DNA of 64,000 nt from Embleya scabrispora DSM 41855 (GTDB lineage Bacteria > Actinomycetota > Actinomycetes > Streptomycetales > Streptomycetaceae): assembly GCF_000372745.1 (NCBI RefSeq), contig NZ_KB889562.1:263321-327320 (forward strand). The letters run 5' to 3'. A program made the translations under genes and the position numbers. The first letter of the stretch is position 1. Each line of letters begins with the position of its first letter. Below, in pieces: positions 20,886-23,952 of this stretch. The notes under the pieces are model-generated. The model was not told where the DNA came from, made no database searches, and saw only the letters and a program-made list of their open reading frames with translations.

Positions 20886-21518
20886 TCAGGTCAGCCGGAT
20901 CAGGCGCCGCTCGGTGGCCACGCTCACCGCGGCGGTCCGGGTGTCCACACCGAGCTTGGCGTAGATGTGGCCCAGGTGGGTCTTCACGGTGGCCTGCGAG
21001 ATGAACAGTTCCCGGGCGATCTCCGCGTTGCCGACACCGCGCGCGAGCAGATGCAGGATCTCCACCTCGCGGGCGGTGAGCGTGCTGTCCGGCTTGCGCA
21101 TGCGACTGAACAGGCGCGCGGCCACCTCGGGGGCCAGTACGGTCCGACCGGCCGCCGCGTCGTGCACCGCCCGGAACAGGTCCTCGGGGCTGCCCGCCTT
21201 GAGCAGGTAACCGGCCGCGCCCGCCTCGATCGCGCGGGAGACGTCGGCGTCCGTGTCGTACATGGTCAACACCAACACGTGCGGCGGCTCGGGCAGCGCG
21301 AGCAGGCGCCGGGTGGCCTCCACGCCGTCGATCCCGCCGACCAGTTGCAGATCCATCAGCACCACGTCGGGGCGCAGCGCGGCGGCCAGCCGAACCGCCT
21401 CCTCCCCGCTCGCCGCCTCGCCCGCCACCTCGATGCCCGCCTCGCCGGCGAACAACGCGAGCAGGCCGGCCCGGACCACGGCGTGGTCGTCGCACACGAT
21501 CAGGCGGATCGGGTTCAC
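20886..21518 (-). CDS. senR: NarL/FixJ-type response regulator (SenR-like)
   Basis: A 210-aa response regulator. The receiver has an acidic pocket (CDDHAVVRAG) and phospho-Asp in VVLMDLQL, then the LuxR-type helix-turn-helix LTAREVEILHLLARGVGNAEI and ISQATVKTHLGHIYAKLGV. It overlaps the kinase stop by 4 nt (ATGA). The symbol rests on synteny: the kinase is next to an HbpS-like gene, as in the redox-sensing SenS-SenR/HbpS system of Streptomyces reticuli. A DNA-binding partner role is certain; the identity with SenR is an inference. Confidence 0.82.
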   Translation of the reverse strand: MNPIRLIVCDDHAVVRAGLLALFAGEAGIEVAGEAASGEEAVRLAAALRPDVVLMDLQLVGGIDGVEATRRLLALPEPPHVLVLTMYDTDADVSRAIEAGAAGYLLKAGSPEDLFRAVHDAAAGRTVLAPEVAARLFSRMRKPDSTLTAREVEILHLLARGVGNAEIARELFISQATVKTHLGHIYAKLGVDTRTAAVSVATERRLIRLT

Positions 21519-22762
21519 GGGGCGGCTCCGGGGCTCGGGTGGGAGGTCGGCTCGGTGCGGGCGACGGAGTCGGCATCCGCGGCGCGGGGCAGGTCGGCCT
21601 GCGGCGGGTCGGGCGGGTCGGGGACGGTGGCGGCCACGGCGGTGCCCTCACCGGGGGCGCTCTCGACGGTGAGTTCGCCGCCCACCTCGGCCAGCCGGCG
21701 GCGCAACGACGGGAGGCCGTAGCCGCGCAGGTCGCCCGCTCGGGTGCGGCCGGGCTCGAAGCCGATGCCGTCGTCGCGGATGTCCAGCGCGACCCGGTCC
21801 GGCAGGTAGGTGAGGGTCACGTGCACGGCCTCGGCCCGAGCGTGTTCCCGCACATTGGCCAGCGCGCCCTGGGCGGTCCTGGTGAGCGCGGCCTGCACCG
21901 GCTCGGCCAGCGGACGGATCCGGCCGTCCACGGCGAGTGTGACGCTCGGCCCGTCCTCGGCCCGAAAACGCTCGACGACCCGGGCCAGGCCGCCCGCGAG
22001 GCCGGGGTCGTCGGCGAGTTCGGCGGGCGCCAGGTCGCGGACGAACCGGCGGATCTCCTCGACGCCGAGCGCCGCCACCTGCTCCGCCCGGTGCACGTGC
22101 GCGCGGGCGGCGGCGGGATCGGTGTCCCAACTGCGGTCCGCGGCCTGGAGCAGCATCCGCAGGCTGGAGGTGCCCTGCGCGATGGTGTCGTGGATCTCCC
22201 GGGAAAGCCGCTCACGTTCGGCCAGCACACCCGCTCGGCGCTCGCTGACCCCCAGTTCGGCGACGGTCTCGCGCAGCCGTCGCTCGTCGCTGCGCATCCG
22301 GGTGAACACGGCGGTGGCGATCGCGGCCACGGCGGGCGGGCCGAGGAACAGGCTGGGGTCGATGGTGTCGGCGAGTCGGTACTGGGCGATCACCACGGCG
22401 GTGGTGAGCAGTACCACCGTGCCGATCGCCGCGCGCGTCGACAACACCCGCAGCCCGGTGTACAGCAGCGGCACCGCGCACCACGCGAAGCTCGGTGCGA
22501 CGGTGACCAGGGCCAGCCACGTGGCGAGCACCGCGGTCAGCCAGGCCGCTCGCGCGGGCGAGGGATCCTCGGGCAGGGTCAGGCCCGCCAGGTAGAGCAC
22601 GGCGAGCAGCAGCGCCAGCGCGAGCACCCACGGGGCCCGTCCGTCGGTGCCGTGTCGAACGGTGTACCGGGCCAGCGACGCGGCGAGCAGCAGCAGGAAA
22701 CCCGCGTGGATCACCAGGCCGGCGTGCCGCACCGGCCATGGCTCTGTTCGCTGTCGTGGCAC
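21515..22762 (-). CDS. senS: HisKA_3-type sensor histidine kinase (SenS-like)
   Basis: A 415-aa kinase from GTG 22762; a longer upstream frame runs antisense through hbpS and is not credible. Four to five membrane helices (residues about 12-150) are followed by RERLSREIHDTIAQGTSSLRML (22 residues, phospho-His in EIHDT) and an ATPase domain with NVREHARAE and DDGIGFEPG. The membrane part has short loops, so a separate extracellular sensor is plausible. The divergent neighbour encodes an HbpS-like secreted protein, the known extracellular partner of SenS. Confidence 0.82.
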   Translation of the reverse strand: MPRQRTEPWPVRHAGLVIHAGFLLLLAASLARYTVRHGTDGRAPWVLALALLLAVLYLAGLTLPEDPSPARAAWLTAVLATWLALVTVAPSFAWCAVPLLYTGLRVLSTRAAIGTVVLLTTAVVIAQYRLADTIDPSLFLGPPAVAAIATAVFTRMRSDERRLRETVAELGVSERRAGVLAERERLSREIHDTIAQGTSSLRMLLQAADRSWDTDPAAARAHVHRAEQVAALGVEEIRRFVRDLAPAELADDPGLAGGLARVVERFRAEDGPSVTLAVDGRIRPLAEPVQAALTRTAQGALANVREHARAEAVHVTLTYLPDRVALDIRDDGIGFEPGRTRAGDLRGYGLPSLRRRLAEVGGELTVESAPGEGTAVAATVPDPPDPPQADLPRAADADSVARTEPTSHPSPGAAP

Positions 22763-22835
22763 GACGTACCTGTTCCCTGTCCCGCTCGGCTCGATCACGC
22801 GCGACGCGCGCGGATCGACGATCCCCTCCACCGTG

Positions 22836-22918
22836 GACCGGCGCGCCGGGGTCCGGATCGGCCGATCGGTTGATCTTCGCACCGCCCGACCGGCGCGCCG
22901 GGACCGGCGATTTCGCCG
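22836..22918. promoter_or_regulatory. Repeated palindromes between senS-like and hbpS-like genes
   Basis: Two identical 15-mers, GACCGGCGCGCCGGG, at 22836-22850 and 22888-22902 are exactly 52 bp apart (five helical turns) and each contains the palindrome CCGGCGCGCCGG. Between and after them lie GATCGGCCGATC (22856-22867) and CGGCGA-TT-TCGCCG (22905-22918). They are candidate SenR-like sites controlling both divergent genes. Confidence 0.5.
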
Positions 22919-23002
22919 ATGGCGGGCGGGCGGATCGACGGGAGCGTGGAGGCATCGGGGCAGCCGCCCGGGAACGACGCAGGAACCGAAGGAGTACGGA
23001 CG

Positions 23003-23560
23003 ATGAGCAGCTTTTCCACCCGGGGTCGGGTGCTGACCGGGGTCTTCTCGCTCGCGGCGGTCGGCGCGGTCACCGCCGGTGTCGCGGCGGCCCAGGTGCC
23101 CGGCACCACGGAGGCCAAGCACGACGAACGCCCGGCGGCGGCCGTGGTGTCGGTCAAGACGCTGGGTGTGGACGCCGCGAGCAAGGCGGCCCAGGCCGCG
23201 CTCGACGCCGCCGAGAAGGAGGGCCAGAAGGTCACCGTTGTCGTGGTGGCTCGGGACGGCTCCACCCGCGTGGTGCTCAAGGGCGACGGCGCCGGCCCGC
23301 AGTCGGAGGAGTCCGCCCGGCGCAAGGCGTACACCGCCGTGTCCTGGAACGCCCCGACCTCGACGCTCGCCCAGCGGGTCACCGCGCCGGGCGCATCGCT
23401 TCGGGACATCCCCGGCACGCTGTTCCTGGCCGGCGCGGTGCCGGTCGCCGTGGACGGCGCCCCGATCGTGGGCATCGGGGTGGCCGGTGCCCCCGGTGGC
23501 GACCTGGACGAGAAGTACGCCGCCGAGGGCCTCAAGGCGATCGCCGGTCAGCTGAAGTAG
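23003..23560 (+). CDS. hbpS: HbpS-like secreted haem-binding (GlcG/DUF336) protein
   Basis: A 185-aa protein from ATG 23003 behind AAGGAG. A signal peptide (residues 1-29, RGRVLTGVFSLAAVGAVTAG) precedes a GlcG/HbpS domain: VKTLGVDAASKAAQAALDAAEKEG (24 residues near 48-71), VTVVVVARDGSTRVVLKGDGA, RRKAYTAVSWNAPTS, FLAGAVPVAVDGAPIVGIGVAGAPGG. HbpS is an octameric extracellular protein that binds haem and iron and modulates SenS under oxidative stress. Divergent placement from the kinase-regulator pair supports this role. The haem ligand cannot be assigned by eye. Confidence 0.82.
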   Translation: MSSFSTRGRVLTGVFSLAAVGAVTAGVAAAQVPGTTEAKHDERPAAAVVSVKTLGVDAASKAAQAALDAAEKEGQKVTVVVVARDGSTRVVLKGDGAGPQSEESARRKAYTAVSWNAPTSTLAQRVTAPGASLRDIPGTLFLAGAVPVAVDGAPIVGIGVAGAPGGDLDEKYAAEGLKAIAGQLK

Positions 23561-23748: not shown

Positions 23749-23952
23749 TCAGCCGAAGACCACCGCGCCCTGGGTGTTGAAGACCGCGCTCTGGAAGGGC
23801 AGCAGCAGTTGGGCCGGCAGGAAGCTGTCCGGCATCAGCGGCTCGCGGGGCGTCTGCGCGGCGCGGGCCGCGGGAATGTACAGCGAGGCCATCGAGCCGA
23901 AGATGACCGCCGTGACGATCACGGCCGCCTTGCGAAATCCGTGCTTGACCAT
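23749..23952 (-). CDS. Small secreted peptide of unknown function
   Basis: A 67-aa product from ATG 23952, with AAGGG 7 nt upstream. Residues 1-30 form a signal peptide (KAAVIVTAVIFGSMASLYIP, then AARAA as likely cleavage region). The predicted mature peptide of about 35 residues has no cysteine and ends in FNTQGAVVFG. I do not recognise a family. It is convergent with the HbpS-like gene. The compact gene with a good ribosome site and signal peptide looks genuine. Confidence 0.55.
   Translation of the reverse strand: MVKHGFRKAAVIVTAVIFGSMASLYIPAARAAQTPREPLMPDSFLPAQLLLPFQSAVFNTQGAVVFG

Follow-up and report, generated by a model that had tools for sequence, protein, structure and literature searches.

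The intergenic region between the senS-like and hbpS-like genes of Embleya is quite probably the common control region of an HbpS-SenS-SenR type system, and its working element would be a 16-bp palindrome at 22858-22873 that is bound by SenR. Judged from its conservation, this palindrome is most likely the SenR operator of hbpS and probably also that of senS-senR. The preliminary description had placed the regulator's site in the interval 22836-22918, and the probable site does lie inside it, but at the palindrome and not at the two 15-mers to which it had been assigned. All positions are those of the window, the whole stretch of 64,000 nucleotides that was analysed; signed offsets are counted from the operator start (22858).

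20886 to 21518, minus strand: senR-like gene for a NarL/LuxR-family response regulator of 210 aa (Response_reg and GerE domains)
21515 to 22798, minus strand: senS-like histidine kinase gene (HisKA_3 5.6e-16, HATPase_c 8.2e-12), with a GTG at 22798
22836 to 22850, no strand: 15-mer copy 1, -22 to -8 from the operator, lineage-specific
22858 to 22873, no strand: predicted SenR operator, 16-bp palindrome TCGGCCGATCGGTTGA with the consensus TCAnCCGATCGGnTGA, located by conservation
22881 to 22887, plus strand: degenerate third half-site ACCGCCC; the family consensus is GTCnnCC at +23 to +29
22888 to 22902, no strand: 15-mer copy 2, +30 to +44 from the operator
22908 to 22919, plus strand: place of the family element CCGGAnCGnCGA (+50 to +61), of which the window keeps the right part only (CGCCGA)
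22942 to 22950, plus strand: promoter -10-like element GAGCGTGGA of hbpS, at +84 here; the family form GAGGRTSGA is usually at +85
22989 to 22994, plus strand: Shine-Dalgarno-like AAGGAG of hbpS, from reading of the sequence
23003 to 23560, plus strand: hbpS-like gene for a haem-binding protein of 185 aa (PF03928, E 2.3e-27, residues 56-177)

Analyses of the flanking genes indicated that Embleya carries a true hbpS / senS-senR type locus. The NarL-type regulator, the HisKA_3 kinase and the PF03928 HbpS-like protein are encoded as previously described, kinase and HbpS divergently, and the three-component arrangement proposed for them is borne out by the domains, the synteny, the regulator tree and the best solved match of the HbpS-like protein, the extracellular haem-binding protein 3fpv (E 1.1e-49). 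The HbpS-like protein has a hydrophobic N-terminus ahead of its PF03928 domain and reads as a secretion-type protein; for the kinase, an alternative GTG start near 22764 has the better ribosome site. Divergent kinase relatives stood beside hbpS at 87 of the 97 places of the family sample (the regions upstream of 97 HbpS-like genes, which came from 95 of the 200 genomes sampled in the family). In the named set, the best 80 of at least 397 confirmed stretches, a kinase match lay beside hbpS in 72 loci and a regulator match was found in 67; the two sets overlap (L158 and G001 C29 are one contig) and their counts are not independent. The system itself is ordinary and had been rightly recognised; the candidate operator is the element added here.

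Two further PF03928 matches occur in the same genome (G000:C121 and G000:C107). Downstream of hbpS lies a small, secreted-looking ORF of ~67 aa on the minus strand (23749-23952), which starts MVKHGFRKAAVIV and of which a close relative was seen by eye at the same place in a third congener (L009, G003:C1639). This congener gave only a weaker, partial hbpS match, beside which KLGVDTRAAAV, resembling the SenR end, was read by eye on the other strand with no program match; kinase and operator were not seen in L009, through either a deletion or an assembly fault in this genome of 1650 contigs.

Comparison of 25 upstream regions revealed one common word between the positions of the 15-mers. Across the 97 upstream regions this word, TCANCCGATCGGNTGA, was exact in 53, carried one mismatch in 38 and two in 3 (94/97 with at most two), the remaining three showing four or five mismatches. 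With at most one mismatch it lay in the last 400 bp of 91 of the 97 regions, compared with a mean of 0.075 for 200 shuffled palindromes of the same composition, the highest of which reached 15 and has its core in common with the motif. A control with the reversed pattern (0/200) was weak because the reversed word contains CTAG, which is rare in genomes of such kind, and the palindrome controls were relied on instead. The motif was also present, with at most one mismatch, at 8 of the 10 hbpS places without a match to the window kinase within 900 bp. Among the named loci, 76 of 80 carried it with at most two mismatches, including all five of Amycolatopsis (in the form TCAATCGTTCGGTTGA), all three of Microtetraspora, one of two of Nonomuraea (the other locus being cut off) and one each of Microlunatus, Catenulispora and Kitasatospora. 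It was absent from the three Micromonospora hbpS loci of the named set, where a TCAACC half-site was seen by eye in another arrangement.

A matrix constructed without Embleya, without sites of more than two mismatches and without duplicates (159 of 170 sites kept) scored 22858-22873 at 26.0 bits, with no other place in the 64 kb above 6.3. In an alignment of 157 relatives, which excluded Embleya and required sufficient flank, the operator showed a mean information of 1.50 bits per column. Among three Embleya genomes the 20 columns of 22855-22874 were invariant, whereas variable columns numbered 4 of the 37 that precede copy 1, 8 of the 39 that follow copy 2 and 15 of the leader's 52. The window site itself departs from the family at one conserved base, with G for A in its left half, and its 41-bp score of 26.1 falls short of the relatives' 5% quantile, 31.6. 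This palindrome had been listed as lying beside the 15-mers; it is indeed there, and it is the conserved element. The motif string gave no match in the literature text searched; the subscription SenR papers were outside the scope of that search, so unpublished status is not claimed.

The elements downstream of the operator were analysed in 159 distinct regions, two of them from Embleya, and column by column in the 157 aligned relatives. TC at +24 and CC at +28 were both present in 138 of the 157 relatives, and the third half-site of the window keeps only C and CC. CCGGAnCGnCGA was found with at most one mismatch in 95 of the 159 regions, usually at +50, and GAGGRTSGA, under the same threshold, in 111 (median position +85), the two being exactly 35 bp apart in 82. 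In 71 of the 157 relatives GAGGAT or GAGGGT began at +85, give or take one base, and both congeners have the element in the form GAGGGTGGA. By its sequence the GAGGRTSGA element looks like a -10 element; a sigma-70 promoter scan of the region returned nothing. We give about an even chance to the proposal that this module of ~93 bp (16-bp operator, half-site at +23, CCGGAnCGnCGA at +50 and GAGGRT at +85), which several actinobacterial families retain, constitutes the primary SenR box, that its operator is common to SenR-like regulators of ABC exporters, and that the module has persisted where the sensor under its control lost its iron/redox residues. If this is true, SenR-type targets would be predictable from sequence, something not easily done with the published site III.

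The motif also occurs away from hbpS. Its exact form was present in at least 131 of 200 family genomes, some of them without a listed HbpS match, and 20 exact places outside hbpS loci were fetched, chosen among the matches listed. Eight of these 20 (L248-L255), from six Streptomycetaceae genomes without a listed HbpS match, were upstream of an ABC ATPase gene as judged by tblastn (ABC_tran by Pfam for six of seven examined), and all eight had downstream a match to the window kinase together with a regulator 53-58% identical to that of the window. The third half-site occurred in four of the eight ABC loci, and a -10-like element near +85 was not found in them.

A regulator tree of 54 rows was constructed from the window regulator, 29 paralogues of its own genome, 16 of the 67 hbpS-locus regulators and the 8 ABC-locus regulators. 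The 17 hbpS-locus regulators, including that of the window, fell on one side of a branch whose support (88/80) is below the star level of the tool, while the 8 ABC-locus regulators grouped together (100/98). Both groups, with only 2 of the 29 paralogues (L268 and L269), made up a supported set of 27 of the 54 rows (96/90). Within this set L268 adjoins SenR (92/83), being nearer to it in the tree than the ABC-locus regulators, and the ABC group is joined weakly (91/45); we are unsure of the branching order inside the set. Two Micromonospora regulators placed in the tree belong to the SenR group and come from loci without the motif. When 30 of the 57 own-genome regulator matches were scanned with at most two mismatches, the motif was found only at the locus of the window, and the DNA surrounding L268 (cut by the contig end) and L269 was without it. 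The motif recurs beside close relatives of the window regulator in two gene settings, and not beside every one of them. Because the two motif-less paralogues fall in the wider SenR set, our confidence in the palindrome as the SenR operator is slightly lowered.

Several neighbouring observations were made. The loci L248-L255, taken with L258-L265, show an ABC operon with kinase and SenR-like regulator behind an exact TCAnCCGATCGGnTGA, possibly a second system using the same operator. The closest regulator paralogue, L268 (C118:13-624, 59%), lies beside an ORF of 434 aa at the contig end. The motif with the third half-site was also seen upstream of a RibD_C-domain gene (L243) and of a PRTase_2/TRSP-domain gene (L257), both in genomes that also carry hbpS. 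The other 12 exact places were near various genes, and the recurrent TCACCCGATCGGNTGA type among them (L238, L239, L241, L242) is without the TGAC/GTC extension. The second exact motif places in Embleya (L138, L139, L140) were rejected as a regulon, being beside or inside unrelated genes and mutually non-orthologous.

The preliminary description had centred on the 15-mer GACCGGCGCGCCGGG, and analysis of the window confirmed its exact duplication at 22836-22850 and 22888-22902, with a start-to-start distance of 52 bp, or 4.95 turns at 10.5 bp per turn. Each copy contains the 12-bp palindrome CCGGCGCGCCGG, which occurs three times in the window versus 0.39 expected (three were reached in 1 of 100 shuffles), and the two neighbouring palindromes are likewise present, one around 22856-22875 and the other, CGGCGATTTCGCCG, by direct reading at 22905-22918. 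The 15-mer pair exceeds chance. No other exact 15-mer repeat with a separation of 15-100 bp exists in the 64 kb, exact pairs of this kind numbered 0.04 on average and 1 at most in 100 shuffled windows, and when the 203-bp intergenic region was shuffled 5000 times, any 15-mer pair arose in a fraction of 0.0008. Genome-wide, the exact 15-mer has 5 places versus 1 for a reversed control word, and the three outside the intergenic region are all within predicted coding frames. A second near-repeat, GCGCGCGGATCGACG, was noticed at 22806-22820 and 22926-22940, with one mismatch and 120 bp apart.

Bogel et al. in 2007 reportedly found that SenR binds sites in the common region of senS and hbpS, and more tightly when phosphorylated. 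Three SenR sites have been footprinted in S. reticuli, of which site III alone has its sequence, CCGGGCCGCGTCCCGT, given in PMC4991794. This sequence is found exactly in the hbpS-senS region of S. eurythermus, where it lies towards hbpS at a distance of 23 bp from the palindrome (+39 to +54), a match expected ~0.0015 times over 157 regions. The S. eurythermus genome has the exact site III at two places, the other being inside a predicted coding frame, and the one-mismatch form at 12 places versus 15 for a reversed control; the match suggests only that SenR binds in the hbpS-senS region. The exact palindrome motif occurs once in the 9.2-Mb S. eurythermus assembly, at the hbpS-senS locus. In the window, the best match to site III at 22764-23002 on either strand has 5 of 16 mismatches, and the equivalent place (+39 to +54) overlaps the 3' end of copy 2 and differs at 9 of 16 positions.

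The chance values of the 15-mers, and the 52-bp spacing retained in both congeners with a full locus (of three compared), would agree with the earlier proposal that the regulator, or some other protein, binds them as a pair, cooperatively or with DNA looping. In the two full-locus congeners copy 2 has the form GACCGGCGTGCCGGG, with one change and 14/15 bases kept, but copy 1 has three changes in each, being GACCGGCTCGCCCAG in the first and GGCCGGCTCGCCCGG in the second, and within the congeners the copies match at only 11/15 by hand count. Conservation in orthologous loci had itself been named as the test of the repeats, and they fail it: both congeners differ in both copies, the exact 15-mer was found in 1 of the 97 upstream regions, and two copies with at most one mismatch likewise in 1. 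Three allowed mismatches gave at least one copy in 33 of the 97 and two or more in 9, which GC-rich sequence can produce. The mean information per column in relatives was 0.24 bits at the position of copy 1 and 0.37 bits at that of copy 2, and 4 of 15 and 1 of 15 columns, respectively, vary within the genus. The 15-mers form a GC-rich repeat particular to this lineage, placed in the low-information gaps that flank the operator; pairing of the two as bound sites is very unlikely, and neither their assignment to the regulator nor looping finds support. The right region had been picked, with the wrong repeat. That repeats or palindromes act in RNA, as a leader hairpin or terminator, is scarcely conceivable: the 12-bp palindromes are able to form stems, but the leader fold is no stabler than shuffles (z 0.44), no terminator-like site was found and Rfam gave no match at the gathering threshold. 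Comparison of the region against plasmids by blastn also gave no match.

The palindrome itself could be bound by some other, equally conserved factor, for example a homologue of the NarL-family OsdR, with SenR binding chiefly at the place of site III. Binding of OsdR, which is of the NarL/DevR type, to AGGGCCGATCGGCCCT was verified with mutated probes, and the OsdR consensus has the core CCGATCGG in common with the palindrome (PMC5069765). The published site III is a different sequence 23 bp off, and the SenR-group regulators of Micromonospora stand at loci without the motif. Against this, the OsdR flanks are GGG/CCC and not TCA/TGA, SenR-like regulators have the motif nearby in two gene settings, the single exact motif of S. 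eurythermus is at its hbpS-senS locus, and the window region is without a site III-like sequence. We regard a different binder as unlikely and retain SenR.

With the palindrome as the SenR operator, a dimer of the NarL-type SenR would bind the two TCAnCC half-sites, and the SenR complex may be extended at the third half-site, which lies 7 bp beyond them on the hbpS side. Phosphorylated SenR would then activate hbpS from the promoter whose -10-like element lies ~85 bp from the operator start, and SenR would also act on its own senS-senR promoter on the opposite side, so that sensor, kinase and regulator would be regulated together. Binding, activation and autoregulation by SenR are proposed here by analogy with S. 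reticuli, for which phosphorylated SenR is reported to activate hbpS, senS and senR (PMC3754957). A misleading repeat pair is in this way replaced by a sharply defined candidate operator of a redox/haem-sensing system in several actinobacterial families, and its consensus may be used to look for SenR-type targets.

In S. reticuli HbpS, roles are ascribed to Ser26, His28, Tyr77 and Glu81 (3FPV numbering), Tyr77 and E78XXE81 forming the iron/redox site (PMC3754957). The Embleya HbpS does not have this set of residues (Tyr77, E78XXE81, Ser26/His28), carrying E77 for Tyr77, R81 for Glu81 and V/T at 26/28 for Ser26/His28. It retains E78, K83 and the context of Thr113, a position with a role in S. 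reticuli HbpS. No adjacent arginines of a twin-arginine (Tat) signal were seen by eye in the N-terminus MSSFSTRGRVLTG. Among 80 HbpS sequences (the window and 79 of the 80 named loci), Y77 was present in 56, E81 in 36, E78 in 78 and K83 in all 80. The residues at positions 77 and 81 vary in this wider set and therefore do not define the syntenic family; set against the conservation of the motif, these counts indicate that conservation is stricter in the control region than at the sensor's iron/redox residues. It may then be asked what HbpS senses in lineages where the control region is present without the iron-binding and tyrosine residues of S. reticuli.

Compared with the OsdR operator of S. 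coelicolor (PMC5069765), the Embleya palindrome is alike in its length of 16 bp, its identical central CCGATCGG and a NarL-family binder, here the predicted SenR, while the OsdR sites have GGG/CCC as outer bases where the palindrome has TCA/TGA, and stand in another gene setting. With this core, the palindrome at 22858-22873 lies upstream of its predicted regulator's own locus. The predicted operator also differs in sequence from the published site III of S. reticuli SenR, near which it would lie. Unlike its S. reticuli counterpart, the Embleya HbpS is without equivalents of Ser26, His28, Tyr77 and Glu81 and without the twin arginine, but the locus resembles the HbpS-SenS-SenR systems of S. 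reticuli and S. coelicolor in having an HbpS-like gene that diverges from the genes of a HisKA_3 kinase and a NarL-type regulator, in the grouping of its regulator and in the match of its sensor to 3fpv.
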